Shown here piece after piece: positions 18,184-61,383 of a DNA stretch of 64,000 bases. The stretch comes from Actinomyces capricornis (GTDB lineage Bacteria > Actinomycetota > Actinomycetes > Actinomycetales > Actinomycetaceae). The notes beneath the pieces are model-generated. The model did no database searches, was not told the origin of the DNA, and saw nothing but the letters and a program-made list of their open reading frames with translations. Position 1 is the first letter of the stretch. Every line of letters starts with the position of its first letter. The stretch spans positions 744,001 to 808,000 of the forward strand of contig NZ_AP025017.1 of assembly GCF_019974135.1 (NCBI RefSeq), in the 5' to 3' direction. The translations under genes were made by a program, and so were the position numbers.

Positions 18184-18280
18184 CGGGGGTTGTCGGCACA
18201 TTGCAGGTGCTGTCGGCGCATTGGCGGGGTCCCAGACCTGCATAGTGCTGACAGCGCCTGCAATCCGGGGACAACCCCCG
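18184..18280. repeat. four-unit palindrome between yagU-like gene and menA
   Basis: Arms CGGGGGT (18184-18190) and ACCCCCG (18274-18280) flank four 20-nt units: two direct (18191-18210, 18211-18230, both starting TGTCGGC) and two inverted (18234-18253, 18254-18273, reading TGTCAGC and TGTCCCC on the minus strand). Unit consensus is near TGTCNGCNCATTGCAGG. The sequence differs from the palindromes elsewhere in the window, but the plan is the same. Confidence 0.7.
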
Positions 18281-18349
18281 TGAACTGCACCCCGGGCCGG
18301 GGACTACGGCCTGAAGCGGGCCACGGGGGAGCCCCGGGGCCCACGGGCC

Positions 18350-19324
18350 TCAGCGCAGGACGGCGGCCAGGCCCGCCACCAGGAGCAGGCTGTAGACCAG
18401 CTCCAGGAGACCGGCGTCGCGAAGCACGGGGATGAGGGCGAGACCCTGCGCCCCGCGCAGGACGGGACGCACCGCCCTCCAGGCCACGGCCCCGGTCAGC
18501 GCCAGGAAACCGGCCGTCACCGCGAGGACCACCGCCGCGCTCCGATCCGGGTGGAGCGCTCCGGCCGCCCAGACCAGGCAGGCCGCCCCCGCCGCCAGGG
18601 CCACGACGACCATGAGCACGAAGGCGCCCCGCGCCCGGGCCTGCCCCAGGCGCACCGCCAGGGTGCGCTTGCCGTGCGCGGGGTCGGTGCGGATGTCGCG
18701 CAGGTTGTTGACCATGAGCAGGCAGCAGGCGATGAGGCCGATCCCGCAGGCCGCCGGCCACAGCCACGGCGGCACTGAGCCGACCTGGACATAGGCGGTG
18801 CCGGCCGTGGCCACCAGCCCGAAGAAGATGAAGACGAAGACCTCCCCCAGGCCCGCATACCCGTAGGGGCGGGGGCCGCCGGTGTAGAACCAGGCCGCGG
18901 CCACGGCCGCCAGGCCCACGGCCACCAGCCACCACTGCCCCGAGAGCCCCACCAGGGCCAGGCCCAGCAGGCCCGCCGCACCGAAGCAGCCGAAGGCGGC
19001 GAGCTTGACGCTGCGGGGGTCGACCTGACCTGAGGCGGTCAGACGGGGCGGGCCGGTGCGCTCGTCGTCCGTGCCCCGCACCCCGTCGGAGTAGTCGTTG
19101 GCCAGGTTGGAGCCGATCTGCAGGGCCAGGGCCACGCCGGCGGCCAGCAGGGTGCGGGGCGCGGAGAAGGCGCCCAGGGCCCAGGCCGCTCCGGCCCCCA
19201 GGATGACGGGGGCGACGGCGGCGGGCAGGGTGCGCAGGCGGACCACCTCGCTCCAGCTGGTGGCGGAGGGCTGCGCGTCGGGCCTAGCGCCGTCGGGCCG
19301 GGCTGCGGGGCGGCCTGTGGTCAT
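18350..19324 (-). CDS. menA: 1,4-dihydroxy-2-naphthoate polyprenyltransferase
   Basis: UbiA-family integral membrane enzyme that prenylates DHNA to demethylmenaquinone. 324 residues with about eight to nine membrane helices; the first Asp-rich Mg/diphosphate motif is NLANDYSDGVRG near 73-84 and the second is NNLRDIRTDPAHGKRT near 205-220. The ATG at 19324 has GAGAGGA upstream. menE ends 43 bp before, same strand, so menE-menA are probably one unit and menG acts on the product. Confidence 0.94.
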   Translation of the reverse strand: MTTGRPAARPDGARPDAQPSATSWSEVVRLRTLPAAVAPVILGAGAAWALGAFSAPRTLLAAGVALALQIGSNLANDYSDGVRGTDDERTGPPRLTASGQVDPRSVKLAAFGCFGAAGLLGLALVGLSGQWWLVAVGLAAVAAAWFYTGGPRPYGYAGLGEVFVFIFFGLVATAGTAYVQVGSVPPWLWPAACGIGLIACCLLMVNNLRDIRTDPAHGKRTLAVRLGQARARGAFVLMVVVALAAGAACLVWAAGALHPDRSAAVVLAVTAGFLALTGAVAWRAVRPVLRGAQGLALIPVLRDAGLLELVYSLLLVAGLAAVLR

Positions 19325-19367
19325 GGTGTCCTCTCATCGTCATGGGTCTGCGGGGAGCCTGGGGAGC

Positions 19368-20942
19368 CTACCCCGCCCCGGCGCCGCCCGCCCCCAGCCG
19401 CGCGGCCAGGGCGCGCCGATCGACCTTGCCCGGGCCCAGCCGCGGCAGCGCCTCGACCACGACGACCCGCTTGGGGGCGTGGGCGCCGTCGAGCCGCTGA
19501 CGCGCGCCGCGCCTGAGGGCCTCGGGCAGGCCGGGCCGGGCGGCGGCCTGCGGCTCGGGGACGACGACGGCGGTAACCGCGGCCCCCCAGCGCGGATCGG
19601 GCAGGCCCAGCACGCAGCACTCGGCGACGCCGGGCAGGGCCGTCATCTCGGCCTCGACCCGGGCCGGGTCGACCTTGATGCCCCCGGTGATGATGATGTC
19701 GTCCAGGCGGCCCTCGACGATGAGGCGGGGGCGGCCGTCGGGGCCGGGCTCCAGGCGGCCGCGGTCGGTCGTGGCCAGCCACCGGCGGGCCCGTCGCGGG
19801 TCGGCTCCCGGATCCCCGGCCGGCGGTTCCGGAGCCGGCGCGGGCACAGGGGGCTCCTCGGGCATGACCGCGCGCGCCGGCCCCGCGGTCCGGGCGCCGT
19901 CCCGGGCCTCGGCCCCGGCGACACCCTCCCCCTCGGCGCTGTCCTCGACCAGGAGAGTGCCGGCTCCCTCGGCGTCGCCCCCCTTCTCGGCGTAGCCGGC
20001 GAACAGGGTGGGGCCGGACAGCAGGATGCGGCCCTGCCGCAGGCGCACCTGAACGCCCTCCAGCGGCAGGCCGTCGTAGACGCAGCCGCCCGCGGTCTCG
20101 CTCATGCCGTAGGTGGTCACCACCCGGATGCCCATATCGCGGGCACGGCGGAGCATCCCGGCGTCGGCCGCCGCTCCACCCACCAGGACCGCCCCCAGCC
20201 GCGCCAGGGCCGCGGCGGCGCGCTCCTGACCGGGGGCCAGGGCGGCCAGGAGCTGGGCAGGCACCAGGGAGGTGTAGACCGGGCTCGGGCCCGCGGCGGC
20301 CAGGGCGCGGGTCACGCCCCCGGCCAGGGCCACGGGGTCGAAGCCATCCGTGGTCTCGACGACGGTGGGCAGGTGGAGCCCCGGGCCGGCCCCGTCATCC
20401 TGGGGTATCCCGGGGCCGTGGTGGGTCCCGGCGCCACCGCGAGTCCCGGAGCCCCGGTCCGGCTCAGGACCCCGGAGCGGGCCCCCCGCGATGAGGCTGC
20501 GCAGGATGACCTGGAGTCCCGCCACATGGTGCGCCGGCAGCGCGAGCACCCAGTGCCCGGGGCCGTCGAGGCGCTCGTGGGTGGCGCGGGCCGAGGCGAG
20601 CATGGCGGCCGCGCTCATGGCCACCAGTCGCCCGGTGCCGGTGGTCGAGCCCGAGGTGCGCAGGAGCAGGTCGGTGCCCGGGTCGGTGCCGGGGCCATGG
20701 GGGTCGAGCCGTCGGGCGAGATCGGCGCGGACCCGGGCCGGGTCCTCCCTCGGGCCGATCGGCACGATGAGGGGCAGCGGCTGGGCGGCTCGACGGTCAG
20801 GCCTCTCATCGGGGCCGGGCCGCTGAAGACCGCGGTCCTCCAGGCGCTCGGCGAGGGCCCGGCCCAGCCGGGCGACGTCGTCGGGCCGGGTTCCGCCGCG
20901 CAGCAGCAGGAGGGGGCGGGGCGTGGTGGTCGGGGCGCTCAT
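19368..20942 (-). CDS. menE: o-succinylbenzoate-CoA ligase
   Basis: ATP-dependent acyl-CoA ligase activating o-succinylbenzoate for MenB. 524 residues of the ANL superfamily: P-loop LLLRTSGSTTGTGRLV near 95, YGMSETAGGCVYDG near 290, hinge DRGRL...LIVEGRLDDIIITGGIKV near 430 and the C-terminal catalytic Lys in GPGKVDRRAL. Two low-complexity insertions are present, around 155-190 and 340-395, the second just before the hinge. The ATG at 20942 is taken because upstream frame is compositionally unlike protein. It precedes menA by 43 bp. Confidence 0.9.
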   Translation of the reverse strand: MSAPTTTPRPLLLLRGGTRPDDVARLGRALAERLEDRGLQRPGPDERPDRRAAQPLPLIVPIGPREDPARVRADLARRLDPHGPGTDPGTDLLLRTSGSTTGTGRLVAMSAAAMLASARATHERLDGPGHWVLALPAHHVAGLQVILRSLIAGGPLRGPEPDRGSGTRGGAGTHHGPGIPQDDGAGPGLHLPTVVETTDGFDPVALAGGVTRALAAAGPSPVYTSLVPAQLLAALAPGQERAAAALARLGAVLVGGAAADAGMLRRARDMGIRVVTTYGMSETAGGCVYDGLPLEGVQVRLRQGRILLSGPTLFAGYAEKGGDAEGAGTLLVEDSAEGEGVAGAEARDGARTAGPARAVMPEEPPVPAPAPEPPAGDPGADPRRARRWLATTDRGRLEPGPDGRPRLIVEGRLDDIIITGGIKVDPARVEAEMTALPGVAECCVLGLPDPRWGAAVTAVVVPEPQAAARPGLPEALRRGARQRLDGAHAPKRVVVVEALPRLGPGKVDRRALAARLGAGGAGAG

Positions 20943-21083
20943 CGCGGGCCAGCATGTCACCACCGGGGACCGATGAGTACCACCGGGGGCCCATGAAGAG
21001 GGATGCGGGCAGGGGCGGGCGCAAGGGGCTCGGGCCACTGGTGGTGGAGGCGCCGGCGTGGACGGGCCGGCGCCGGGTTCCTC

Positions 21084-21095
21084 TATGGTGTGCCC
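21084..21095 (+). promoter_or_regulatory. leaderless -10 for the PLDc_N-like gene
   Basis: TATGGT at 21084-21089, then GTGCCC, then ATG at 21096. Confidence 0.5.
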
Positions 21096-21629
21096 ATGCG
21101 CATCGTGCTCATCGTCCTGGCGTTCGCCCTCGTCCTGTACTCGCTGCTGGACTGCGCCCGCACTCCTGAGGAGAGCATGCCCGCCCGGATGCCCAAGTTC
21201 CTGTGGATCGCGCTCATCATCCTCTTCCCCACGGTCGGGGCGATCGCCTGGATCATCGTCTCTCGGGTCAAGGCCGCCGAGGAGCGGGGCGGGTACGTGG
21301 AGCCGACCGTGTGGTCCTCCAAGGAGGGCACCACCTTGCGCCGCCCGGAACGACCGCGCCCGGTGGCGCCCGACGACGACCCGGAGTTCCTGCGGGACCT
21401 GGAGCAGGGCATCCGTCGCCGTCGGCACCACCCGGAGCAGGGCGATCAAGCACCGGGGAGCGCACAGCCCGGGCAGGCGGGCGGGGCCCCCGGCACCGGC
21501 GGCGCGAGGAGCCAGGACACGCCCGCAGCGGGCACCGAGGGGCCGGCTGACGGCACAGGCCCTGCCGACGGCACAGGCCCTGCCGACGAGGAGCCGGAGG
21601 ATCCCACCGCTGCCCCACCGGCGCCCTGA
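21096..21629 (+). CDS. small membrane protein with PLDc N-terminal-like domain
   Basis: A 177-residue protein. Residues 1-20 (IVLIVLAFALVLYSLLDC) and 34-54 (FLWIALIILFPTVGAIAWII) are two membrane helices; the pair, with the short loop RTPEESMPARMPKF, fits the phospholipase_D-nuclease N-terminal domain found alone in many actinobacteria. No HKD catalytic motif is present, so it is not a phospholipase. The C-terminal half is a hydrophilic Gly/Ala/Pro tail with two copies of DGTGPA. Function unknown. Transcribed without leader from its own promoter; converges on the next gene across a palindrome. Confidence 0.8.
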   Translation: MRIVLIVLAFALVLYSLLDCARTPEESMPARMPKFLWIALIILFPTVGAIAWIIVSRVKAAEERGGYVEPTVWSSKEGTTLRRPERPRPVAPDDDPEFLRDLEQGIRRRRHHPEQGDQAPGSAQPGQAGGAPGTGGARSQDTPAAGTEGPADGTGPADGTGPADEEPEDPTAAPPAP

Positions 21630-21659
21630 CCTGGAAGGCCCCACTGGGCCCCCGCCCGT

Positions 21660-21766
21660 CCTGCCTGCACATCTTCAGCACTGCCCCGGTCAGCAGATCG
21701 GCGCCATCCCAACAACCAGCCACCAGCAACCGCCCGCCCGGGCCCCGAAGATGTGCAACGGGCAGG
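21660..21766. repeat. TGCACATCTTC palindrome, copy 1
   Basis: TGCACATCTTC (21666-21676) and its complement GAAGATGTGCA (21747-21757) form the core arms, extended by CCTGCC/GGCAGG outside. It fills the 145-bp gap between two convergent genes. Related copies are at 42137-42241 and 51000-51052. Confidence 0.65.
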
Positions 21767-21774
21767 GCGCGACG

Positions 21775-22608
21775 TCAGGGCAGGTGGGCTCCCCCGCGGG
21801 GCCAGGGGCCGGTGTCGACCTCGTAGCCGTGGGCGGCGGCGTGGGTGAGCCAGTCGGCGGGCAGCCAGCTGCCGGAGACCAGCTGGGGATGGTTGGGCAG
21901 GTAGCGCACCGCCCACAGCACCAGGACCAGCTCGGCCCACTGGCCGCGCAGCTTCCAGCGCGCTGAGCCCGAGGCGTTGGTGGCGGCCATGACGATCTCG
22001 CCGGGCGCGGTGAGCTGGACCTCCTGGACCTGCTCGAAGGGAACCGGCATGATCCCCTCCCCCGTGCCCAGGTAGATGCCGTGGGTGGAGACGGTCAGGC
22101 GGGCGCGGGCCAGGTGGCGCCACTTCTCGACGGCGTCGGCCTCGGCGGCCTTCTTACGCCGGTTGTTGAGGTAGGCCTGACCGCCGAAGAAGGCGGCCGT
22201 CAGCGCCAGGCCCACGGCCCCCCCGGCGAGGAAGAAGCCCCGGGAGGGGTTGTAGGTGGCGTCGCCCCGCCGCCACATGAGCAGCTCTGCGTCGCAGGTG
22301 GCGAGCATGGTCTCATCGGCGGCGAACACACGGCGCACGGGGTCGATATGCGGGGAGACCGGGCTGGGCCGGTAGCCGCGGCGGGTGGCGGTCAGGACGG
22401 CAGCGGTGTTCCACCACACGAAGTCCTGCCCGGTCCAGGGCCGCCGCGGGGTGGGCCTGCGCGCCGTGGCGGCCAGGTCGCGCGCACCGGCCCGCACCAC
22501 CTCTCCCCCGGTGGGCCCGACGCCGTCCGGGCGCCCGTTGGTGCGACCCCCGCCGTCACGGCCCCCACCTGCGCCGCCCGTCGGTCGGGAGGGCGGCTGC
22601 TGCGTCAC
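21775..22608 (-). CDS. membrane protein with PH-like domain, unknown function
   Basis: A 277-residue protein with no confident family. N-terminal 55 residues are Gly/Arg-rich and disordered; one to two hydrophobic segments occur near 125-145 ([20 protein letters not shown]); then a beta-rich part with [35 protein letters not shown], which looks like a bacterial PH-like fold, and a Trp-rich C-terminus ([17 protein letters not shown]). The GTG at 22608 overlaps the stop of the phosphatase gene (GTGA, 22605-22608), so the pair is translationally coupled. Confidence 0.65.
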
Positions 22609-23339
22609 GCCGGGGCTCCCTGCGCGGGGGCCTGCGCGGCGTCGTCGTGCCCGGGGGTATAGACGCCGGTGCCGGCGGCAGTGCTGGCCGGGGAGGTGCC
22701 GGGGACCATGTCGCGGGCCTCGCGCAGCAGATCGCCGGCGGGCTCCCAGTAGGCCATGCCCACCAGGGTGCGCCCCTCGAAGGTCAGGGAGGTCAGGGAT
22801 GCCAGGGAGCACTGCCGGCGGCGGGGGTCGTGTGCCAGGGGCCGGCCCTCCAGGAACAGCCGCAGGGACCACACGGGCAGCTGGTGGGAGACCAGGAGGG
22901 CCTCGTGGCCGTGGGCGGCGGTCAGGGCCGAGACGACGGCGGCGCGCATGCGCGCCACGATGTCCCGATAAGGCTCGCCCCAGGAGGGGCGCATCGGGTT
23001 GATGTAGTAGCGCCAGTACCGGGGGCTGGCCAGCAGGCGGCGGTCGTCGTTGACGGCGACTCCCTCGAAGTGGCTTCCGGCCTCGATGAGCCGCTCGTCG
23101 ACGGTGGGGGTCAGGCCGAAGGCGGCGGCGGCGGGGGCGCCGGTCTCGCGGGCCCGCTCCAGGGGCGAGGTGATGACGTGGGTGAGGTCGTGGCCCGAGG
23201 CGGCCAGGACATCGGCGACCTGCTGGGCCATGCGGGAGCCGAGGTTGGACAGGTGGTAGCCGGGCAGGCGGCCGTACAGGACGCACTCGGGGTTGTGGAC
23301 CTCGCCGTGCCGCATCAGGTGGATCGTCGTACGCGCCAT
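22605..23339 (-). CDS. histidine phosphatase family protein
   Basis: A 244-residue phosphoglycerate-mutase-like phosphatase. The RHG catalytic motif is at the N-terminus ([13 protein letters not shown], His10 as phospho-acceptor), followed by [16 protein letters not shown] and the second catalytic His in [11 protein letters not shown]. Such proteins act on small phosphorylated metabolites; the substrate cannot be told from sequence. A C-terminal Ala/Gly tail of about 35 residues is added. GAGAAT lies six bases before the ATG, suggesting a leaderless start. Divergent from dapD. Confidence 0.88.
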
Positions 23340-23351
23340 GCGGTGATTCTC
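23340..23351 (-). promoter_or_regulatory. possible leaderless -10 for the histidine phosphatase
   Basis: GAGAAT at 23351-23346, then CACCGC, then ATG at 23339 on the minus strand; weaker match than most. Confidence 0.35.
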
Positions 23352-23428
23352 GCACGCCCCGACGACGGGTGGCACGAGCGCACGGCGCCCGGATCGCGGG
23401 CGAGGCGACGCCATGGGCGCGCCTGCCG

Positions 23429-23441
23429 TATCGTGGCGGCC
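23429..23441 (+). promoter_or_regulatory. leaderless -10 for dapD
   Basis: TATCGT at 23429-23434 and seven bases before the ATG at 23442. Confidence 0.5.
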
Positions 23442-24425
23442 ATGACGACTCGCAGTGCATGGGGCCTCGGTCTGGCGACCGTGACCGAAGACGGCAACAC
23501 CCTCGATGTGTGGTACCCGCGTCCGGTTCTGGGCGATGAGCCCGAGGACGGTCACGCCGACCTCCTGGAGACCCTCAGCGCCATGGAGCGCCGCGACGAG
23601 GCCCGCGGGGTGCGCACCGCCGTCGTGCGCACCTGGGCCGACCTCGACGACGCGCCTCTGACGGTGGCCGGCGCCTACCTGCGCCTCCACGTCCTGTCCC
23701 ACCGCCTGGCCCAGCCCAACACCGTCAACCTCGATGGGATCTTCTCCCGCCTGCCCAACGTGGTGTGGACCTCGGCCGGCCCCTGCCCCGCGGAGGACTT
23801 CGAGGCCACCCGCACCCGCCTGCGCGCCGCCCTGGGCCGCCCGGTCCAGGTCAACTCGGTGGACAAGTTCCCCCGCATGACCGACTACGTGCTGCCCTCG
23901 GGGGTGCGCATCGGCAACGCGGCGAATGTGCGCCTGGGCGCCTACCTGTCCGAGGGCACCACGGTCATGCACGCCGGCTTCGTCAACTACAACGCGGGCA
24001 CGCTGGGCCGCTCCATGGTCGAGGGCCGCATCTCCCAGGGCGTGGTCATCGGGGACGGCTCGGATGTGGGCGGGGGCGCCTCGACCATGGGCATGCTCTC
24101 GGGCGGCGGGCGCCAGCGCGTGGTCCTGGGCGAGCGCTGCCTGCTGGGCGCCAACTCCGGCCTGGGCATCCCCCTGGGCGACGACTGCGTGGTGGAGGCC
24201 GGCCTCTACCTCACGGCGGGCACGAAGGTCTCGGTCATGCCCCAGGGCGGCGTCGTCCCCGGTGCGCACGGCCTGTTCAAGGAGCCGCGCGTGGTCTCGG
24301 CCCGCGAGCTGGCGGGGGTCTCCAACGTCCTGTTCCGCCGCAACTCCCAGTCCGGCGCCGTCGAGGCCCTGGCGCGCGGAGGCAAGGGCATCGAACTGAA
24401 CACCGCCCTCCACGCCAACCAGTAG
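23442..24425 (+). CDS. dapD: 2,3,4,5-tetrahydropyridine-2,6-dicarboxylate N-succinyltransferase
   Basis: Adds succinyl from succinyl-CoA to tetrahydrodipicolinate in lysine and diaminopimelate synthesis. 327 residues of the actinobacterial (group 2) DapD: N-terminal domain to about 150, [20 protein letters not shown], then a left-handed beta-helix with hexapeptide repeats ([40 protein letters not shown]) and a C-terminal [20 protein letters not shown]. dapC, two steps further in the pathway, is at about 35 kb. The stop is seven bases from the first copy of the 72-bp palindrome. Confidence 0.94.
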
Positions 24426-24431
24426 CCCAAC

Positions 24432-24503
24432 CTTTCGACAATTTGCATGAGATCGGCCTTTTCCGGCGCTGGAAAAGGCCGATCTCATGCAAATTGTCGA
24501 AAG
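24432..24503. repeat. TTTCGACAATTTGCATG palindrome, copy 1 (perfect 33-bp stem)
   Basis: Left arm 24432-24464 and right arm 24471-24503 are perfectly complementary over 33 bp around a six-base loop. Seven bases after dapD and 73 bp before sdhC, both on the plus strand. Three other copies follow in the next 8.4 kb. No U-tract on either strand. Confidence 0.9.
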
Positions 24504-24576
24504 GAAGGGGGGCGGGTGCGCGCTGCTGTGATCCGCGATACACTTGTTGTCCGCGGGATCACATGGAGCGTGGGCC

Positions 24577-25356
24577 ATGAGCAGCACCGGTCAGCAACCA
24601 GCAGCACCTCCCCTGGGGGACTCCCCGCCCGCGCGCTCCCCCGCCACCCGCCCCTCCCCCGCCACCCGGCGCCTGCCGCACGCCGTGCTGAAGACCACGA
24701 TGGCGGTGACCGGCTCGATCATGGGGCTCTTCGTCCTGGTCCACATGATCGGCAACCTCAAGGTCTTCCAGGGCCCGCGCGCCTACGACGGCTACGCCGC
24801 CATGCTGCGCACCTTCGCCTACCCGCTCCTGCCCCACGAGGGGCTGCTGTGGGCCCTGCGCCTCGTGCTCCTGGCCTGCATCCTGGCCCACACCGCAGCC
24901 GGGGCCGCCCTGTGGCGCCGCGCCCGTCTCGCCCGCGGGCCGCACCGGCGCCGGGGCCTGCTGCCACGCTCCTTCGCCGCCCGCACCATGCTGCTCTCGG
25001 GCGCCGTCGTCGGGGTCTTCGTCGTCGTGCACCTGCTGGACCTGACCATCGGCCGCCTCGTGGCACCCCCCGCCTACCGGCCCCCATCGGGGCACGGCCC
25101 CCACCTGGAGGTCCACGCCTACGCCAACCTCGTGGCGAGCCTGTCGCGCCCCTGGATGGCACTGCTCTACACCGCCGTCATGGTGGTCATCGGCCTCCAC
25201 CTGGCCCAGGGCCTGTGGAGCGTCCTGCACGACCTGGGCGGCACCGCGCCCCGCCTGCGCCGCATCTGGCTGGCGCTGGCCCTCCTGGTGGCCCTGGCCA
25301 TCGCCGTGGGCAACGGCTCCCTCCCCCTCCTCGTCCTGACCGGAGTGATCTCATGA
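24577..25356 (+). CDS. sdhC: succinate dehydrogenase cytochrome b subunit
   Basis: Membrane anchor of the succinate:menaquinone/fumarate reductase complex. 259 residues with about five transmembrane helices, the single-subunit b-type family that binds two hemes; candidate heme ligands are His in LVHMIGNLKVF, LPHEG, LAHTAAG, VVHLLDL and IGLHLAQG. A 35-residue Pro-rich N-terminus precedes the first helix. The ATG at 24577 has GGAG eight bases upstream. Its stop overlaps sdhA (ATGA). Confidence 0.9.
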   Translation: MSSTGQQPAAPPLGDSPPARSPATRPSPATRRLPHAVLKTTMAVTGSIMGLFVLVHMIGNLKVFQGPRAYDGYAAMLRTFAYPLLPHEGLLWALRLVLLACILAHTAAGAALWRRARLARGPHRRRGLLPRSFAARTMLLSGAVVGVFVVVHLLDLTIGRLVAPPAYRPPSGHGPHLEVHAYANLVASLSRPWMALLYTAVMVVIGLHLAQGLWSVLHDLGGTAPRLRRIWLALALLVALAIAVGNGSLPLLVLTGVIS

Positions 25357-28183: not shown

Positions 28184-28190
28184 CCCCTAT

Positions 28191-28264
28191 CTTTCGACAA
28201 TTTGCATGAGATCGGCCTTTTCCGGGCCTGGAGAAGTACGATCTCATGCAAATTGTCGAAAAGA
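28191..28264. repeat. TTTCGACAATTTGCATG palindrome, copy 2
   Basis: Outer 23 bp of the stem are perfect; the inner part pairs with mismatches and G-U pairs. It lies between convergent sdhB and the DUF2087 gene. Bases 28191-28291 are identical to 28903-29003, including the last codons of the minus-strand gene. Confidence 0.88.
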
Positions 28265-28276
28265 AGGGGCGGCGGG

Positions 28277-28902: not shown

Positions 28903-28976
28903 CTTTCGACAATTTGCATGAGATCGGCCTTTTCCGGGCCTGGAGAAGTACGATCTCATGCAAATTGTCGAAAAGA
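28903..28976. repeat. TTTCGACAATTTGCATG palindrome, copy 3
   Basis: Identical to copy 2 across the stem. It lies 13 bp beyond the stop of the methyltransferase gene (minus) and upstream of the DUF2087 gene, so only one gene ends here. Confidence 0.88.
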
Positions 28977-32806: not shown

Positions 32807-32880
32807 CCTTCGACAATTTGCATGAGATCGGCGTTTTCCAGGCCCGGAAAGGTACGATCTCATGCAAATTGTCGAAAAGA
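32807..32880. repeat. TTTCGACAATTTGCATG palindrome, copy 4
   Basis: Lies between the converging SGNH/vWA gene (stop 32794) and gltA (stop 32890). The outer stem is the same as in the other copies; the inner part differs (GGCGTTTTCCAGGCCCGG). Confidence 0.88.
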
Positions 32881-36310: not shown

Positions 36311-36379
36311 AAGCGAGTGCGGGGTGCAGAAAGCGAGTGCGGGGTACTCGCATTCTGCACCCCGCACTCGCATACTGCG
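36311..36379. repeat. GCGAGTGCGGGGTGCAG palindrome between fdxA and dapC
   Basis: Two direct 20-nt units (36313-36332 and 36333-36352) begin GCGAGTGCGGGGT; an inverted unit is at 36352-36371 and a partial one next to it. Arms 36313-36338 and 36346-36371 pair over 26 bp with one mismatch. Both neighbouring genes run on the minus strand. Confidence 0.8.
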
Positions 36380-52917: not shown

Positions 52918-52937
52918 GGGTCCTCCTGGCGCCGAGG

Positions 52938-53522: not shown

Positions 53523-53619
53523 GGGGCCTCCTGGGGCTCGGGCTCGATGCGAGCGGCCAGGCTACCGGGCAGGGACGACGCGAGGCCACCGTGCGGGGCC
53601 CACCGCAGGTCGAGCTCCA

Positions 53620-53688
53620 CGATCTCATACCCCTGCACTCGATCTCGTCAGTCAGGGGTACGAGCCGGCGGGCCAGGGTACGAGATCG
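53620..53688. repeat. four-unit palindrome in a divergent promoter region
   Basis: Direct 20-nt units at 53620-53639 (CGATCTCATACCCC) and 53640-53659 (CGATCTCGT); inverted units at 53649-53668 and 53669-53688, reading CCGGCTCGTACCCC and CGATCTCGTACCCT on the minus strand. It ends 31 bp before the Nudix -10 box; no gene ends here. Confidence 0.7.
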
Positions 53689-53718
53689 CGAGCGGGGGCG
53701 CCGCCGGCGTCGACCACC

Positions 53719-53730
53719 TAGTGTTGCCCC
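53719..53730 (+). promoter_or_regulatory. leaderless -10 for the Nudix gene
   Basis: TAGTGT at 53719-53724, TGCCCC, then GTG at 53731. Confidence 0.5.
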
Positions 53731-54270: not shown

Positions 54271-54375
54271 GGGGCACTGGGGCCGCACAGGCGCGGAGGA
54301 GCGGGGCGGCGCCCACGAGGGCGAACCGCCCGCACCCGGCCTTGGAGGCGCAGGCCCGACGAGCACAGGGCGGCG

Positions 54376-54404
54376 GATCCGCGTCTCAGGGGGAACCGCG
54401 GATC
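54376..54404. other. GATCCGCG dyad
   Basis: GATCCGCG (54376-54383) and CGCGGATC (54397-54404) form an 8-bp stem with a 13-nt loop between the converging Nudix and patatin genes; probably a terminator. GACGCGGATCC also occurs at about 56912. Confidence 0.4.
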
Positions 54405-54464
54405 AATCCGGGCCCGGGCTCCCGGCCACGCCTCAGGCAGTCACGGTCCTGCGCCCCGAGCCCC

Positions 54465-55562
54465 TCAACCCGCTAGGAAGTCCTCGATGGCGGGCAGCTC
54501 CCGGTGGGCCTGCGCCAGCCCCGCCTCGAAGGCCGAGACGATGCGGTCGTAGCGCAGCTCGCCGTTGGCCACCGACATGCGCTCGGGGCGGAAGAGGTAG
54601 GCCCGGCCCTGCCGGCTCAGCGCCTCGAGCTCGGCCACGGTCCGGTTGTAGTTCGCGGGGCGCTCGATGATGCCCCGGGCCAGCGCCGGGTAGCGCGCGA
54701 AGAGCCGCCGGTAGGCGGCGGGCCGCCCCACAGGAGGCTTGACGTAGCCCCGCGGACGGGTCATCACCACCAGGAAGCGCTCATAGCCGGCCCCGCGCGC
54801 CGCATCCAGGGCGAATCCCCCGGTGGGCCCCAGGGCCCCGTCCATGTAGGGAACACCGTCGATGCGCACCATCGGCATGAGCACCGGCATGGAGGACGAG
54901 GCGCGGGCGCGCACCAGCAGGTCCCCCATGGCCGGCATGTCCTCCAGCCCCCAGTAGACGCTGCGCCCCGTGTCGCAGCGCAGGGCGCCGATGCGCACCG
55001 TGGAGGCCGAGGAGCTGAAGGAGGGCCAGTCGAAGGGCAGGGCCTCCTGGGGCGCCGAGGTGTGCTCGTAGATGTACTCGGAGTTGAAGTAGCCCCGGCC
55101 CCGCAGGAAGCTCCCCCAGCCCCCGGCCCTCGGGTCGGCGGCCAGGGACACGAAGGCCTCCCGGGTGCGCCAGGTGTCGCGCGAGACGAAGTTGCAGGTG
55201 TGCGTGCAGCCGGCGGAGATGCCGCCCACCCAGGGGAAGGACAGGCCGGCCTCCAGCATCACCCGCACCAGTGCGGCGGTGTAGGCCCCGCGCATGCCCC
55301 CGCCCTCGAAGATCAGGGCGACATCGTCGGGCCCATGGGTGATGGGGGCGGGCCGGTGGTCGGGGTGGCCGAAGGGCACCCGTGGGGCGGGGGGCGCGGG
55401 CCTGCCGCGCTCGGGGCGCGCCGTGGCCGAGGCGGCGTGGGCGGTGCCGGCAGCGCGCGCCGTCGTCAGGGCTGTGGCGCGGGCACTGGCAGGGCGGGCC
55501 TCCGGCGTCGGGCGCGGCGGGATCGGGGGTGGGGAGTCGGTCTGGCTGCTGGGACTCGGCAT
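54465..55562 (-). CDS. patatin-like phospholipase
   Basis: Serine acyl hydrolase of 365 residues with the Ser-Asp dyad: oxyanion loop FEGGGMRGAYTAALV near 90, nucleophile in VGGISAGCTHTCNF near 113, and Asp in MDGALGPTGGF near 240. The first 75 residues are Pro/Ala/Thr-rich. Related to RssA/YlbK-type bacterial proteins. ATG 55562 six bases after TAGGGT, which decides the start. Divergent from the OYE gene. Confidence 0.9.
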   Translation of the reverse strand: MPSPSSQTDSPPPIPPRPTPEARPASARATALTTARAAGTAHAASATARPERGRPAPPAPRVPFGHPDHRPAPITHGPDDVALIFEGGGMRGAYTAALVRVMLEAGLSFPWVGGISAGCTHTCNFVSRDTWRTREAFVSLAADPRAGGWGSFLRGRGYFNSEYIYEHTSAPQEALPFDWPSFSSSASTVRIGALRCDTGRSVYWGLEDMPAMGDLLVRARASSSMPVLMPMVRIDGVPYMDGALGPTGGFALDAARGAGYERFLVVMTRPRGYVKPPVGRPAAYRRLFARYPALARGIIERPANYNRTVAELEALSRQGRAYLFRPERMSVANGELRYDRIVSAFEAGLAQAHRELPAIEDFLAG

Positions 55563-55574
55563 GCCCGCACCCTA
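55563..55574 (-). promoter_or_regulatory. leaderless -10 for the patatin gene
   Basis: TAGGGT at 55574-55569, GCGGGC, then ATG at 55562 on the minus strand. Confidence 0.5.
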
Positions 55575-55662
55575 TTGCGGCATCCCGGCTATTCCCGCCC
55601 GCGGCGCTGTCCGCTGCCCGCGCACCGCCGCATCGGCCGACGACGGCGCCCGGGCACCGGCG

Positions 55663-55675
55663 TAGCGTGACCGGC
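55663..55675 (+). promoter_or_regulatory. leaderless -10 for the OYE gene
   Basis: TAGCGT at 55663-55668, seven bases, then ATG at 55676. Confidence 0.5.
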
Positions 55676-56782
55676 ATGAGCCCTTCTCACGCCTCCCCCC
55701 GCATCCTGGAGCCCCTGACGATCCGCGGCACCCGGGCGCGCAACCGCCTGTGGCTGCCGCCCATGTGCATGTACAGCGCCGAGGCCGGCGACGGACGGGT
55801 GTCCGACTGGCACCTCACCCACTACGCCAGCCGGTCGGTGGGCGGCTTCGGGACCGTCATCGTGGAGGCCACCGCGGTCTCCCCCGAGGGCCGGCTCTCG
55901 CCCCAGGATCTGGGCCTGTGGGATGACCGGCAGGTCGAGGGCCACCGCCGCCTGGCCCGGGCCATCGCCAAGGGCGGTGCCCTGCCCGGCATCCAGCTGG
56001 GGCACGGGGGCCGCAAGGCCGGCACCCCGGCGATGTGCCCGGCCGCCCCGGGGGCGCGGCGCACCACCCTGGAGGGCTGGGAGCTGCTCGCCCCCTCCCC
56101 CATCGCCTACCCCGGGCATGCCGAGCCCGCCGAGCTCGACGCCGCCGGGATCGACCGCCTGGTCGAGGCCTTCGCCGCCGCGGCCCGGCGTGCAGTGCGG
56201 GCCGGATACGAGGTCATCGAGCTCCATGGGGCGCACGGCTACCTCATCCACGAGTTCCTCTCCCCGCTGTCCAATGAGCGGCACGACGACTACGGCGGCG
56301 ATGCGGTGGGTCGACGGCGCTTCGCGCTGCGCGTGGCGCAGGCCGTGCGCGAGGCGATCGGGGAGGAGCGGGCCCTGGGAGTGCGCCTGTCGGCCACCGA
56401 CTGGCTGGAGGGCGGGCTGACCCTGGAGGAGACCGCTGGGCTGGCGGGCGAGCTGGTGACGGCGGGGGTCGATGTCCTGCACATCTCCAGCGGCGGCAAT
56501 GCCCCCGCCGAAGTGCCGGTGGGGCCGGGCTACCAGCTGCCGCTGTCCGAGGGCGTGCGCCGGGCGGTGGAGGGGCGGGCCCCGGTGGTGGGCGTGGGGC
56601 TCATCCAGCAGGCCGCCCAGGCGGAGCAGGCGCTGGTGAGCGGGCAGGCCGACGCCATCGCCGTGGGCCGTGCGGCCCTGCGCGACCCCTACCTGCCGCT
56701 GCGCTGGGCCGCGGACCTGGGGGCCCGCGCCTGGGACGAGGCCCCGTGGCCCATCCAGTACTGGCGCGGGACCTGGCAGTAG
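55676..56782 (+). CDS. NADH:flavin oxidoreductase / old yellow enzyme family (YqjM-like)
   Basis: FMN-dependent ene-reductase of 368 residues in the thermophilic-like OYE group: RNRLWLPPMCMYSAEAGDGR, SDWHLTHYASRSVGGFG, PGIQLGHGGRKAGT, VIELHGAHGYLIHEFLSPLSN and YGGDAVGRRRFALRV. The catalytic Tyr region and FMN-binding Arg are in place; the natural substrate is unknown. The start is fixed by the leaderless -10. Alone between divergent patatin and convergent YchJ-like genes. Confidence 0.93.
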   Translation: MSPSHASPRILEPLTIRGTRARNRLWLPPMCMYSAEAGDGRVSDWHLTHYASRSVGGFGTVIVEATAVSPEGRLSPQDLGLWDDRQVEGHRRLARAIAKGGALPGIQLGHGGRKAGTPAMCPAAPGARRTTLEGWELLAPSPIAYPGHAEPAELDAAGIDRLVEAFAAAARRAVRAGYEVIELHGAHGYLIHEFLSPLSNERHDDYGGDAVGRRRFALRVAQAVREAIGEERALGVRLSATDWLEGGLTLEETAGLAGELVTAGVDVLHISSGGNAPAEVPVGPGYQLPLSEGVRRAVEGRAPVVGVGLIQQAAQAEQALVSGQADAIAVGRAALRDPYLPLRWAADLGARAWDEAPWPIQYWRGTWQ

Positions 56783-56982
56783 GCGGGGCCCCGCCCGGGA
56801 CGGCCGGGCCGCCTGGGCGCTGCCCCTTCCCGCCGCGGGGCCGTCCTCGGCGGCAGGCCTGCGGCTGGCCGGCCCGGGCCCTGCGCGGCTCTCCCGCTCC
56901 TAGCGCTCCTAGACGCGGATCCGACGCCTGCCGGGGTGGCGACCCGCATCTTGAAGGGGCAATCCGCAGAAGGGGGCAGGGC

Positions 56983-57456
56983 TCAGCGGGGCAGGGCCTC
57001 CAGGTAGAGCCAGCGCCCGGCGCGGCGCACGAAGCGGGAGCGCTCCCGCAGCTCGTCGACGGCGATGCCTCCCCGCCCATCGACCGCCCGGTAGCGGGCG
57101 GTGAACTCCACGATGCCCGCCTCATCATCCGCCTGCCCGGCCACGACCTCCTCGATGCGCAGCCCCAGCCACTGCGTGCCGGGATGGCAGTAGGGGCCGG
57201 GCGGGCGGGTGCGCGGGTGCCAGGTGCGGAAGATGTGGTCCTCATCCCCGACGGCGAAGGCCGAGTACCGCGAGCGCATGAGCGCCTCAGCGGTGGGGGC
57301 GACCCGACCATCGTGGATGGGCTCGCAGCACGTGGCGAAGCTGGCGCCGGTGCCGCAGGGGCAGGGGTCGGCGCCCCGCACGCCTGCGCTGCGCACCGGC
57401 GAGGCCCCGGCATCCGCGCTCGCGCGAGTACCGGCCTGCCGTGCTCGCCGCCCCAT
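56983..57456 (-). CDS. YchJ-family SEC-C domain protein
   Basis: A 157-residue protein. N-terminal SEC-C-like Cys motif DPCPCGTGASFATCCEPI (about 30-47), then the YchJ domain with EALMRSRYSAFAVGDEDHIF and RTWHPRTRPP, a cystatin/NTF2-like fold (VEFTARYRAVDGRG). Metal-binding and possibly nucleic-acid or ribosome linked; function unknown. ATG at 57456, two bases after the aminopeptidase stop, so it is the second gene of that unit. Confidence 0.88.
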   Translation of the reverse strand: MGRRARQAGTRASADAGASPVRSAGVRGADPCPCGTGASFATCCEPIHDGRVAPTAEALMRSRYSAFAVGDEDHIFRTWHPRTRPPGPYCHPGTQWLGLRIEEVVAGQADDEAGIVEFTARYRAVDGRGGIAVDELRERSRFVRRAGRWLYLEALPR

Positions 57457-57458
57457 GC

Positions 57459-58886
57459 TCAGGCCCCCAGCCAGTAGGCGTGCAGGGCGCGGGCCAGGAG
57501 GGGCCCGTCGGCCACGGCGCACATCTCGCGCTGGGAGTGCATGGACAGCAGGGCCTGGCCGACGTCGATGGTGGTGATGCCGAGCCGGGTGGCGGTGATG
57601 GGGCCGATGGTCGAGCCGCAGGCAACCGCATTGTTCGATACGAAGTCCTGGCTGGGCACGCCGGCAACCGCGCAGGCCCGGGCCCACACGGCCGCGCCGA
57701 CGGCGTCGGTGGCGTAGCGCTGCTGGGCGTTGATCTTGAGCACCGGCCCCCCGCCCAGGACCGGCCGGACCACCGGGTCGTGGAGGTGGCCGTAGGCGGG
57801 GTGGGCGGCGTGGGCGGCGTCGGCCGAGACGCACAGGGAGCGGGCGATCATGGCGGCCCGGGCCTCGCCCTCGACGCCCAGGGCCCGGGACAGGCGCTCA
57901 AGGATGCTCTCCAGGAAGGGCCCGCCGGCACCCGAGCGGGTGCTCGACCCCACCTCCTCATGGTCGTTGGCCACCATGAGGAGGGGCCCGGTGGGGGTGT
58001 GCCCGCCGGGTGCGGCGGCCTCCTCCAGGGCGCACAGGGCGGCGTGGACGGAGGAGAGGTTGTCCAGCCTGGCCGAGGCCAGCATCTCCCCGCGCAGCCC
58101 GAAGCGCGCCGGGGCCTGCGTGGGGTAGGTGACGACGTCGTGGAGGGCCAGGTCGTGCGGGTCGATCCCGGCCAGCTCGCACAGGTGGCGCTCGGGGGCG
58201 TCGGGGCGGGCCCACTGGCGCAGGGCCTCGGGGTCGGAGCCCGGGGCCGGCAGCGACCACAGGGGCATGAGGTGGGCCTGGCGGTCCAGGTGGAGGGAGT
58301 CGTTGACGCTGCGGTCCAGGTGGGGGGCCACCTGGGCGACGCGCGCCACGGGGCCGGTGCGCACGAGGCGGACGGCGCCGTCGCGGGTGACCAGGCGCCC
58401 GGCCAGCCCGAGCTCGCGGTCCAGGAAGGAGTTGAGCAGGGGCCCGCCGTAGACCTCCACGCCCAGGGCCTGGATGCCGTCGCGCACGACGGCGGCCCGC
58501 GGCTTGAGCTTGAGGGCCGGGGAGTCGGTGTGGGCGCCGACGATCCTCCAGCCCGCATCGGCCTCCAGCCGCTCGGGCAGGAGCCAGGCGATGATGGCGC
58601 CGTCGCGGACGGCGTAGCCGCGGGCAGGCGCCCCCTCCCAGGCCTCGGTCTCCCGCATCCGCTGGAAGCCGGCTGCCTCCAGGCGGCGCGCCGTCTCGGC
58701 GGCGGCGTGGTAGCTGGAGGGGGAGGCGGTCACGAAGCTGATGAGGGAGTTGGTGTAGGCCTCCTCATCGCGCAGGGGGCCGGGAGCGGCGGCCGAGGCT
58801 GCGGGGCCGGGGCTGTCGGCGACGGCGGTGCCTGTGGGCTCAGTGGGCTCAGACGAGGTGGCGGGCTCGGAGTCGGGGGTCGTCAT
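57459..58886 (-). CDS. M18 family aspartyl aminopeptidase
   Basis: Zinc metallopeptidase of 475 residues that removes acidic N-terminal residues. Metal and catalytic segments: VGAHTDSPALKLKPR near 118, LLMVANDHEEVGSS near 305, and LCVSADAAHAAHP near 345, with His of the last metal site near the C-terminus (TTIDVGQALLSMHSQREM). The first 40 residues are Ser/Thr/Pro-rich. ATG 58886 with a weak -10. YchJ-like gene follows by two bases. Confidence 0.92.
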   Translation of the reverse strand: MTTPDSEPATSSEPTEPTGTAVADSPGPAASAAAPGPLRDEEAYTNSLISFVTASPSSYHAAAETARRLEAAGFQRMRETEAWEGAPARGYAVRDGAIIAWLLPERLEADAGWRIVGAHTDSPALKLKPRAAVVRDGIQALGVEVYGGPLLNSFLDRELGLAGRLVTRDGAVRLVRTGPVARVAQVAPHLDRSVNDSLHLDRQAHLMPLWSLPAPGSDPEALRQWARPDAPERHLCELAGIDPHDLALHDVVTYPTQAPARFGLRGEMLASARLDNLSSVHAALCALEEAAAPGGHTPTGPLLMVANDHEEVGSSTRSGAGGPFLESILERLSRALGVEGEARAAMIARSLCVSADAAHAAHPAYGHLHDPVVRPVLGGGPVLKINAQQRYATDAVGAAVWARACAVAGVPSQDFVSNNAVACGSTIGPITATRLGITTIDVGQALLSMHSQREMCAVADGPLLARALHAYWLGA

Positions 58887-58898
58887 GGGCCCAGTGTG
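58887..58898 (-). promoter_or_regulatory. weak leaderless -10 for the M18 aminopeptidase
   Basis: CACACT at 58898-58893, GGGCCC, then ATG at 58886; only a partial match. Confidence 0.3.
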
Positions 58899-59294
58899 TC
58901 ACTGGGGCGGTGTGTTTCAGTGTGTTGCTGCGCTGCCGCACGGCCGGGGCCCGGCCCTGCGCCGCCCGGCCGCCGCACCGCGCCTCCCAGCCGCACCGCC
59001 CGGCCGCCATGCCGCCCAACTGCCCCACGAGCGGGCCCCAAGCACCAGGGCAGGAACAGCACCGCGCAGCCAGGTGCACCTCCCCGGGCGGTGGTCGACG
59101 CCGTCGGCGCGGGCAGGGCCTGGGTGCGCACCAGGAGGGTCCGGCGCTCCGGGAGGCTGGTGGGCGCGGCCGGCAGGGTGCAGCATGGCTGCTGCTCGGC
59201 TGGAGCCCAGTCGGGCCTGTTGAGCGCCTGGGATCGCCTGTCCGGGGCCTCTGGGGCCTCTGGGGCTCAGGATCGGCGTCGGTTGGCGGAAAGA

Positions 59295-59367
59295 GCGTCG
59301 CTTCGCGACTTCGACGCCACCTACAGGGTACGTCCATTCCGCGAAGTGACGCCCTTGTCGCGAAGTG
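59295..59367. repeat. GTCACTTCGCGAC palindrome, copy 1
   Basis: Four 19-nt units: direct 59295-59313 (GTCGCTTCGCGAC) and degenerate 59314-59332; inverted 59330-59348 and 59349-59367, both with GTCACTTCGCG on the minus strand. Lies in the divergent gap, 300 bp from the nearest start. Confidence 0.7.
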
Positions 59368-59676
59368 ACGCCCAACCGCGCCCCCTCACCGCCGGCACTG
59401 GCCCGGCCCGCTCCAGCCCGCGCCCCCGGGCGGCGCGGCTCCCCCGGCACAGCCTCCGCCCAGCCGATCCAGCGCTCCGGGACGAGCCCGGCCCCGGTGG
59501 ATCGTCCCGGCCACGCCGCCCCCGCACCACGAGCTGTCCCTCGCACCGGGGTGGAAGCCGGCAGGAGAGGCGGCACCAGGAGCACACGTCGGCAGCGGCC
59601 CCCGAGGGCCGGAGGCCAACGAGCTCACCGCCGTCGCCCTGGACCCAGCGGGCGCTTCCCCACCGGGGGCGGGTGG

Positions 59677-59688
59677 CAGACTTCGCCC
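59677..59688 (+). promoter_or_regulatory. leaderless -10 for the HAD gene
   Basis: CAGACT at 59677-59682, TCGCCC, then ATG at 59689. Confidence 0.4.
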
Positions 59689-60378
59689 ATGACTCCGATG
59701 CCCCCTGCCGCAGCAGACGACCCCTCCGCAGCCGCCCCCGCAGCTTTTCCGCCCGCGAGCGCCGTGCGCGCCGTTCTGCTGGATGCCGACGGCGTCCTCC
59801 AGCTCATCGGCACCCCCTGGGAGCAGGCCCTGGCCGCAGGCGGCGGCCCGAGCTTCGCCCGGGCCCTGCTCGATGAGGAGGTCGACGCGCTGGAGGGCCG
59901 CGAGGACCTGCGCGACCTGCTGGCCCGCCTGGTCGAGCGCCTGGGGCTGGAGGCCGGCACCGAGGAGCTGCTCGACCTGTGGTGGCGGGCCACCCCCGAC
60001 CCCACCGCCTGGCAGGTGGTGCGCGACCTGCGCGCCAGCGGCTACCTCACAGTCCTGGCCACCAATCAGCAGCATGAGCGCCGGGACTGGATGCGCACCG
60101 TGCTGGGCTATGACGGCCTGTGCGACCTGGACGCCTACTCCTGCGAGGTGGGAGCGGCCAAGCCCAGCCCCGACTTCTTCCACCGGGTCCTCGCCCTGGC
60201 GGGGGTCAGCGCCGAGCAGGCCCTCTTCGTCGATGACAATGCCGAGAACATCTCCGTGGCCCAGAGCCTGGGCATCCGCTCCATCCACCACCCGGCCGAC
60301 GCCGGAGGCCGGGTGCTGCGCCGCGAGCTGGCCGAGGAGCTGGGCCGGGCCCAGCCCCCGGTGCGCCCCGAGGCCTGA
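59689..60378 (+). CDS. HAD-family hydrolase
   Basis: A 229-residue haloacid-dehalogenase-type phosphatase. Motif I LLDADGVLQL (nucleophile Asp near 35), motif II in VLATNQQHERRDWM, motif III Lys in EVGAAKPSPDFFHRVL and motif IV in FVDDNAENISVAQSLG. It is of the epoxide-hydrolase/phosphoglycolate-like subfamily; the substrate is unknown. Starts with a short Ala/Pro tail and is transcribed without leader. Confidence 0.9.
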   Translation: MTPMPPAAADDPSAAAPAAFPPASAVRAVLLDADGVLQLIGTPWEQALAAGGGPSFARALLDEEVDALEGREDLRDLLARLVERLGLEAGTEELLDLWWRATPDPTAWQVVRDLRASGYLTVLATNQQHERRDWMRTVLGYDGLCDLDAYSCEVGAAKPSPDFFHRVLALAGVSAEQALFVDDNAENISVAQSLGIRSIHHPADAGGRVLRRELAEELGRAQPPVRPEA

Positions 60379-60460
60379 GCCATCGGGGCACCAGCACTGC
60401 CCTGCGCCGGTGCCGAGCAGGCCCCGCCCGGGGCCGGCCGGGCACCGCACCCACGCGGGT

Positions 60461-60482
60461 CTCCTCCTCCGTCGGGAGGAGG
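60461..60482 (+). terminator. short terminator after the HAD gene
   Basis: CTCCTCC (60464-60470) pairs with GGAGGAG (60475-60481), four-base loop. It is 85 bp after the stop and ahead of gtrA. Confidence 0.4.
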
Positions 60483-60648
60483 GGACGACGTCGTCGAACT
60501 CATCCTGAAGGAGACTTGCCACCGGGACCGGGCGGGGGAAGACTCGCCCACAGTGCCCGCATCGCCGACGTCGAGTGCCCCGCACCACCAGGTGCGACAA
60601 CGACGCAGGCAGGGGCCGTTCAGAACAGCCCAGAGAAACGGAGGCCCC

Positions 60649-61191
60649 ATGGCGACCACGACGCACACCGACCCGGTGCCGTTGGAGCGCCTGCGGGTAC
60701 AGGACCCGCAGCCGGGCTCCTCGCGTCGTGCCCCCATGCGCTTCCAGGCGCTCATCCACGCCATCCACCGCCGTCTGCCCGCAGTGCTGCGCCGCCGCGT
60801 GCCGGTGACCTTCATCGGCTACGCGATCATCAACGGCTCGGCCTTCCTGCTGGACATCGCCTTCCTGTGGTTCCTCTACGAGAAGCTGCACTGGTTCTAC
60901 CCGCTGGCGGTCACCGTGGGCTACGCCATCGCCGGGCTCTACTCCCTGCTGCTCAACCGGTGGCTGAACTTCCAGGCCCACGGCCACCTGGTGGCCCAGG
61001 GCTCGCGCTACGTGGTGGGCCTCATCAGCCAGTACGTCATCTTCATCCTGGGGCTGTCCTCCCTGCTGCACTGGCTGGGGATGAACGCCGAGCTGGCACG
61101 GTTCCTGTCGGCCTGCTGCGAGGGCGTCTACCTGTATGTGCTCATGCGTCTGTGGGTCTTCCGCGGTGTTCCCGAGCCCGAGGGCTCCTGA
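60649..61191 (+). CDS. GtrA-like membrane protein
   Basis: A 180-residue protein with four membrane helices in the pattern of the GtrA/DPMS flippase family: FIGYAIINGSAFLLDIAFLW, FYPLAVTVGYAIAGLYSLLL followed by NRWLNF (a family hallmark), YVVGLISQYVIFILGLSSLL, and FLSACCEGVYLYVLMRLWVF. Such proteins move lipid-linked sugars across the membrane or help wall teichoic or glycan transfer. ATG 60649 with GGAGG. No glycosyltransferase neighbour was seen. Confidence 0.9.
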   Translation: MATTTHTDPVPLERLRVQDPQPGSSRRAPMRFQALIHAIHRRLPAVLRRRVPVTFIGYAIINGSAFLLDIAFLWFLYEKLHWFYPLAVTVGYAIAGLYSLLLNRWLNFQAHGHLVAQGSRYVVGLISQYVIFILGLSSLLHWLGMNAELARFLSACCEGVYLYVLMRLWVFRGVPEPEGS

Positions 61192-61291
61192 ATCACAGGG
61201 CCCTGCGGCGCCCGGCCCAGGGGGCGCGGGCCCCGGCTCCCCTCACTGCCCCGCCGGCGCCTCCCGGGAGCTGAGGAGGCTCAAGAACGAC

Positions 61292-61383
61292 GTCGTTTCG
61301 CGAAAAGCGCGTCACTTCGCGACGTGAACACCCCTCACAGGTGTCGCCTCCGTCGCGAAGTGACGCCTCCGTCGTGAAGTGAC
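61292..61383. repeat. GTCACTTCGCGAC palindrome, copy 2
   Basis: Direct 19-nt units at 61292-61310 (GTCGTTTCGCGAA) and 61311-61329 (GTCACTTCGCGAC); inverted units at 61346-61364 and 61365-61383, reading GTCACTTCGCGACGG and GTCACTTCACGACGG on the minus strand. Between converging gtrA-like and pth2 genes. Confidence 0.8.

Follow-up and report, generated by a model that had tools for sequence, protein, structure and literature searches.

Mirrored arrays of 19-20-nt units form dispersed intergenic element families in Actinomyces

Main

Five intergenic elements (E1-E5, Table 1) in a 64-kb stretch of the Actinomyces capricornis chromosome (hereafter the window: G000:C1:744001-808000, from the 3.17-Mb, one-contig host genome G000) represent four dispersed multi-copy families: A (E4, E5), B (E2), C (E3) and D (E1). 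In each family a short unit recurs in tandem at 19-20 nt and faces an inverted set of the same units. Elements of these families lie between genes, mostly downstream of them, and some that are present in one species are absent from the matching junction in a related one. Tentatively, we favour the reading that they are dispersed non-autonomous DNA elements, built as mirrored arrays of 10-14-bp putative protein-recognition sites.

Four of the elements, and most of the fifth (E2), had been proposed in an initial annotation of the window to consist of units in the order forward, forward, reverse, reverse (FFRR), and all five were recovered where they had been placed. When the window was scanned for this arrangement (FFRR score), E5, E4, E2 and E1 gave its four highest scores, and ten Markov-1 shuffles of the window peaked at 53-58. 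The score of E3 is at chance level taken alone; E3 is accepted because relatives with an identical plan exist elsewhere in the host genome. E4 carries an extra outer unit (59277-59290), extending the element beyond the start first given for it. The unit sequences had been taken to differ, and several distinct units are indeed present, but E4 and E5 have one in common, so there are four families rather than five.

The excess of 19-20-nt periodicity over shuffled intergenic sequence, on which the initial annotation depended, was borne out in a sample of 20 evenly spaced 20-kb stretches of the host genome (400 kb, 16.6% intergenic DNA; one stretch contains E4 and E5). At an FFRR score of at least 62, all 14 matches with a period of 19-20 were intergenic and all three with other periods were coding; ten shuffles of the sampled intergenic sequence gave no FFRR match. 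An earlier scan of the same stretches plus the window, with periods of 17-23, gave 19 matches, in which E4 and E5 are counted twice because their stretch overlaps the window, versus one in 800 kb of shuffles.

Table 1 Mirrored and iterated elements in the window, with coordinates counted from its first nucleotide.
Element	Position	Strand	Family	Units	FFRR score	Flanking genes
E1	18184..18280	.	D	20-nt units, two forward and two reverse, G/C-rich centre; consensus, by eye, about TGTCNGCAGATCGCAGGGGT	64	Convergent
E2	36311..36379	.	B	20-nt unit AATGCGAGTGCGGGGTGCAG; outer forward 36313-36329, inner forward from 36333, outer reverse 36355-36371	68	Tandem
E3	53620..53688	.	C	20-nt unit GATCTCGTACC plus variable part	58	Divergent
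E4	59277..59370	.	A	59277-59290 and 59296-59309 (one strand), 59338-59351 and 59357-59370 (other strand); centre 59315-59332	71	Divergent
E5	61291..61384	.	A	61291-61304 and 61310-61323, facing 61352-61365 and 61371-61384; centre 61329-61346	72	Convergent
	56838..56967	.	Probably a degenerate member of a further family	20-nt unit, by eye about AAACCGCGTCCTGAAGGGGC		

Copies and register

Family A is built on a 14-nt core that recurs every 19 nt. The 14-mer, with at most one mismatch, has 55 matches across the chromosome versus one for the control. The 106-nt consensus of the family consists of an outer unit, a unit, an 18-nt centre, an inverted unit and an inverted outer unit, with 5-nt spacers, and weaker G-rich/C-rich conservation continues for about 20 nt further on each side. 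Examined loci of G000 and of a second genome of the genus, G003, which we take to be Actinomyces bowdenii DSM 15435, contain 54 copies; 49 score at least 100, and the five that score below 100 are, by eye, without an outer unit. The family B 17-mer, with at most two mismatches, has 35 matches versus three for the control. Members of families C and D were picked by eye from BLAST rows at E <= 1, self-matches and both strands included (16 rows for C; 18 for D, with ten places kept). Among the A and B unit matches listed, most sit in compact elements and a few stand singly (for example, 51382).

The units keep a strict register. At own-genome loci, 40 of 41 same-strand spacings in family A are 19 nt; spacings of 20 nt account for 13/16 in B, 3/3 in C and 4/5 in D. 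Distances from forward to reverse units mostly rise in one-unit steps: 42 (26 cases), 61 (6) and 80 (1) in A; 24 (13), 44 (2) and 93 (1) in B; 37 (2), 57 (2), 17 (1) and 56 (1) in C; and 40, 60 and 80 (one each) in D. Outward-facing neighbours, that is, reverse followed by forward, were found in none of the four families at these loci.

The clearest array family comes from another genome of the genus, G033, with a unit of GACGTACCTTAG plus 8. Its 12-mer has 39 exact matches in G033 and none in the other 48 genus genomes, and the reversed control has two elsewhere. Thirty of the 39 matches, those with loci, resolve into 17 arrays of one to five units per half. Same-strand spacing is 20 nt in 58 of 67 cases, with one overlapping reverse-to-forward call, and the offset from the last forward to the first reverse unit is 9, 19 or 29 in 16 arrays and 18 in the remaining one. 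Partnerless and paired units, admitted alike at a cut-off of three mismatches, are equally conserved (1.00 versus 1.14 mismatches of 12; n = 16 and n = 74), and the spacers pair no better than shuffled ones (3.8 versus 4.07 +/- 0.23 matches of 8; n = 20). Genes between close G033 arrays are ordinary by eye.

Position relative to genes

Gene calls, made with a simple codon-usage caller written for this analysis, agree with the initial assignment of two window elements to divergent, two to convergent and one to tandem gaps. The accompanying claim that a gene end is not what the elements share lacks support genome-wide. Among 67 placed elements of families A-D (35 A, 15 B, 7 C and 10 D), none is inside a gene; 27 lie in convergent, 31 in tandem and 7 in divergent gaps, and two have no assigned orientation, with background gaps of at least 100 bp numbering 22 convergent, 95 tandem and 29 divergent. 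Of the 31 tandem elements, 26 lie closer to the gene upstream, at its 3' end, than to the one downstream (A 12/13, B 9/10, C 1/1 and D 4/7). The G033 arrays occupy nine convergent, seven tandem and one divergent gap, and all seven tandem arrays are closer to the upstream 3' end, two of them lying <10 bp away (array edge).

A perfect 36-nt palindrome at 18124-18159, probably an ordinary terminator, immediately follows a gene whose end is at 18097 and shortly precedes E1.

Distribution across Actinomyces and beyond

Models of families A and B were searched over 49 genus genomes with filters that drop weak matches. Family A matched in two, G000 and A. bowdenii; all 80 scored candidates match in each of these genomes, which therefore contain about 40 or more elements apiece. 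Family B matched in four (strand matches: G000 42, A. bowdenii 42, G048 22 and G029 2), the G048 matches forming a diverged subfamily, and gave no matches in the other 45. G029 contains a family with the unit GTCTACCTCGGCGGAAAAT, unrelated in sequence and following the FFRR plan, twice in 16 kb. Own unit families were also seen in A. gerencseriae, A. urogenitalis, A. ruminis / succiniciruminis / glycerinitolerans, A. dentalis and others; outside families A and B, the genome-wide count covers the G033 family alone. Unit sequences are private to lineages in the three families tested (A, B and G033), and unrelated units follow one head-to-head plan in several Actinomyces species and in one genome of another genus, in keeping with the original proposal that the elements have architecture, and not sequence, in common.

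Broader sampling gave a similar placement. In 40 stretches from 18 genus genomes (19% intergenic DNA), intergenic matches made up 13 of the 14 with a period of 19-23 and 4 of the 12 with another period, and ten of the 18 genomes had an intergenic match of any period. At 19 named loci, which were fetched via one neighbouring gene and therefore sample a single chromosomal region, all 12 matches with a period of 19-23 were intergenic, and 12 loci had an intergenic match of any period. Some matches in these two sets (for example, L220:19043 and L231:18071) resemble plain GC-rich tandem repeats. Intergenic arrays that are tandem only, with 22-23-nt units, were seen at L215:13111 (G033), L185:12014 (G024) and L190:155 (G034); they are perhaps one-sided members of the mirrored class.

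Twenty genomes of other genera (800 kb) gave seven FFRR matches versus one in shuffles; gene calls in this sample were unreliable (70% called intergenic) and were left unused. The convincing arrays among these are the four of G112 only, a genome of another genus in which rows of mirrored 20-nt arrays lie 3' of all three 5S rRNA genes (L312:8572-9410, L317 and L318). The idea of rRNA-operon terminators that G112 prompted is not general: 18 Actinomyces pieces from nine genomes (one piece 76 nt long), taken from 32 listed 5S genes in 11 Actinomyces searched, have no array directly behind 5S and mostly end in what is, by eye, an ordinary hairpin. With the FFRR threshold lowered to 56, these ends gave one match in G023 (score 64, period 20, 524 nt behind 5S; L336:524) and one in G000 (score 59, period 30).

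Gain and loss at matching junctions

Orthologous junctions, a comparison outlined in the initial annotation, differ in whether an element is present, and E5 is absent from the A. bowdenii junction. Measured between matched stretches, the E5 junction is 235 bp long in the window, 46 in A. bowdenii, 22 in G020, 107 in G029 and 153 in G048, and alignment places no family A element there in any of these four genomes. G029 has an FFRR element of different sequence at the junction itself. By eye, 14 of the 19 named loci (including A. bowdenii) have a short gap without an array at this junction, A. dentalis has a GC-rich match of period 18 at threshold, A. oricola has direct repeats, and three A. oris strains (L230:10480, L232 and L233) have another hairpin. 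The units of this A. oris hairpin seem, by eye, to be ordered a b c c' a' b', with pairing by unit type and not by mirror position; A. oris P6N has no such element at the junction.

Family A elements at 624056, 633200 and 620377 are likewise absent in A. bowdenii. The two genomes have in common five A sites, five B sites, E3 at the same junction and one D site; E4 is common to both, with one flank covered only. The A. bowdenii stretches were mostly selected at that genome's own elements, and the counts of shared and lacking sites therefore give no rate.

Pairing, covariation and strand signals

Pairing between the halves was assessed by a measure that is inflated by relatedness, against a shuffle control that takes no account of kinship among copies: the family A inner stem (24 copies) has 31 both-side-changed cells versus 20.0 +/- 3.7 in shuffles (0/500 as high), the family A outer stem has 18 versus 32.3 (500/500 at least as high) and the family B stem (14 copies) has 13 versus 5.6 (0/500 as high). 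Counted as pairs with a double change, the A inner stem is not above shuffles (7 versus 6.5; 255/500). Over 49 family A copies, the inner pair gives z +4.5, the outer pair z -4.0 and the centre halves (c1/c2) z -4.8. The two halves of the centre thus mostly differ, so that the element has a polarity; it can be read in 34 of the 49 copies, and no link with gene direction was seen (four same, four opposite).

Very stable folds are predicted for the elements. A strand bias of wobble pairs (G-U versus A-C) is absent in co-directional gaps (A inner 15 versus 15, A outer 21 versus 17, B 3 versus 1), and the mean difference between sense and antisense folds in family A is -0.05 kcal/mol (13 elements). 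Rfam gave no match in the window at gathering score; this and the missing wobble bias count against an RNA element.

Interpretation

The preferred reading, mirrored arrays of protein-recognition sites, starts from a site spaced at 19-20 bp (in other species, 19-23 bp) and arranged as two opposed halves. This spacing is close to two helix turns, and a sequence-specific DNA-binding protein may occupy the units cooperatively, all on one side of the helix. Each half would then serve as one end of a minimal mobile element or a bridged complex, and each lineage might have its own family because the specificity of the protein, or the protein itself, changes fast. Recognition of DNA unit by unit is favoured over an RNA fold because conservation is unit-wise, register and facing are fixed and wobble bias is absent. 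Among the roles first suggested, a protein-binding site and a mobile non-coding element are each compatible with the data, and the two may be identical; a transcribed folded RNA fits least. A wider and more doubtful proposal is that a class of mirrored iterated sites extends across Actinomyces and into one or more further genera of its family, its layout inherited and its 'word' replaced in each lineage; each lineage would have its own dispersed arrays behind genes and a DNA-binding protein that changes fast (a recombinase, or a bridging or roadblock protein).

Several observations weigh against arrays of protein sites. The helical-phase argument is only suggestive because the period in most families is 19-20, not 21. 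Base-pair covariation above shuffles in the A inner stem and the whole B stem counts against a pure array of duplex sites, because such an array needs none; it could stem from template switching during replication or from copying by way of a hairpin or cruciform. The sense strand of family B folds 2.15 kcal/mol better on average (10 elements, -12.9 to +3.8), and family B and G033 elements adjoin gene ends closely, in the manner of terminators. A partner protein was not found, with Y1 matches in 0/49 and Mu/TniA-type matches in 1/49 genus genomes. At E5 the candidate target-site duplication, the 8-mer CCCCTCAC, flanks the element yet also occurs inside it and was dropped, and the other empty sites are too diverged for a target duplication to be read.

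The foremost rival is transcribed 3'-end hairpins, that is, bidirectional terminators or mRNA-stabilizing structures of a high-GC organism that have spread as copies. Such hairpins would explain the placement downstream of genes, the convergent enrichment, the very stable predicted folds, the covariation of the B and A inner stems and the slightly better fold of the B sense strand. We nevertheless consider them unlikely, given the lack of wobble strand bias and of a sense preference in family A, outer A arms that are less complementary than shuffled partners, partnerless G033 units that are conserved equally, the position of E1 just behind a separate perfect palindrome and the 0/18 sampled Actinomyces rRNA operon ends with an array directly behind 5S. 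Neutral quasi-palindromes, in which inverted-duplication copies are kept alike by template switching or gene conversion between arms and no binding protein is involved, would yield arm-to-arm covariation (A inner, B) without RNA wobble bias. They are improbable as the explanation, since they predict neither the fixed 19-20-nt register and head-to-head-only orientation nor the non-covarying A outer arms, the unequal centre and the conserved single units with diverged spacers.

Tn7/Tn402/Mu-type transposons have, at each end, several transposase sites of about 19-22 bp in tandem, with the two ends inverted. Miniature inverted-repeat transposable elements (MITEs) of such a transposon would have an identical two-ends geometry, and E5 resembles an insertion; we still regard this origin as very unlikely. 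Mu-transpos_C (PF09299) was found in one of the 49 genus genomes, G019, which is neither family A carrier, and in none of the A or B carriers (0/14 control genomes matched, and the G019 match alone shows the sensitivity of the search). The elements also have no cargo, no conserved terminal TGT..ACA by eye and a unit number that varies from one to five. MITEs in general are short and non-coding, with inverted halves, and differ in presence between relatives, as here; in the Actinomyces elements, however, no sharp ends were recognised, no target duplication is proven and no partner transposase was found. Plasmid centromere and iteron arrays consist of a short protein site in tandem at fixed spacing, whereas the present elements are dispersed in dozens of chromosomal copies with mirrored halves. 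A phage or plasmid origin was dropped: exact searches of three patterns in viral_contigs, of E5 in plasmids and of a G033 array in phages gave no match.

The closest likeness is to repetitive extragenic palindromic (REP) sequences, bacterial interspersed mosaic elements (BIMEs) and REP doublets forming hairpins (REPINs). As described in PMC3733652, these, including GTAG and CGTC REPs, are likewise short, dispersed and extragenic, with inverted units, lineage-specific families and a bias towards 3' ends and convergent gaps. Like REPINs, the Actinomyces elements are scattered through intergenic DNA as short units in inverted pairs. Their units, however, iterate in tandem in a 19-23-nt register before inverting, and no tag common to the families was seen. 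In CGTC REPs, as described in the same paper, units are single, and the CGTC tag is followed by a stem of 8-9 bp with a loop of 4-5 nt; family A units start with CGTC but have only a 5-bp imperfect dyad in place of that stem. Movement by a REP-associated tyrosine transposase (RAYT; TnpA-REP, Y1 family) is hardly credible and was rejected, with Y1_Tnp (PF01797) in 0/49 genus genomes and in 5/14 control genomes. The elements are thus REP-like, as broadly dispersed extragenic palindromic repeats, but are set apart from REPINs because the defining enzyme was not found in the genus genomes.

DNA uptake sequences (DUS) also consist of a short species-specific motif, a 10-12-mer, in inverted pairs behind genes; Neisseria has about 2,000 DUS copies per genome and its inverted pairs act as terminators (PMC2397512). 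Copy number makes this identity highly improbable, with 39 exact 12-mers in G033 and 55 near-exact 14-mers in the host (tens versus thousands), and so do the 0/67 elements within genes and the tandem arrays of 20-bp period. The initial annotation knew of no described class with this rule, and the literature searched, of limited coverage and including parts of PMC3733652, PMC2397512 and PMC4679880, likewise contained no account of mirrored, iterated arrays from Actinomyces.

If arrays of protein sites are the right reading, non-coding elements that obey a geometric rule and not a sequence rule are dispersed in many Actinomyces genomes, and interspecies sequence-similarity searches would therefore miss them. 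The units would then be ready bait sequences for finding a DNA-binding or mobilising protein, and the private families a natural series for following the co-change of a binding specificity and dozens of genomic sites.

Other repeats in the window

A. bowdenii has a 4.4-kb segment (L160:2478-7001) that the window lacks, with a copy of a further iterated-repeat element on either side, both in direct orientation. One relative of this flanking element is left in the window, the stretch at 56838-56967, which has 79% identity to the A. bowdenii copies and is not among the window FFRR matches; the one A. bowdenii counterpart inspected by eye has about five tandem units. The 4.4-kb insert was considered as an autonomous partner and rejected, as by eye it encodes an ABC transporter, a histidine kinase and a response regulator, and no transposase. 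Four copies of another palindrome (TTTCGACAATTTGCATGAGATCG ... CGATCTCATGCAAATTGTCGAAA), without a 20-nt period, lie near gene ends at 24431-24504, 28184-28269, 28904-28973 and 32809-32876, and two further copies are present in A. bowdenii (L164 and L168).

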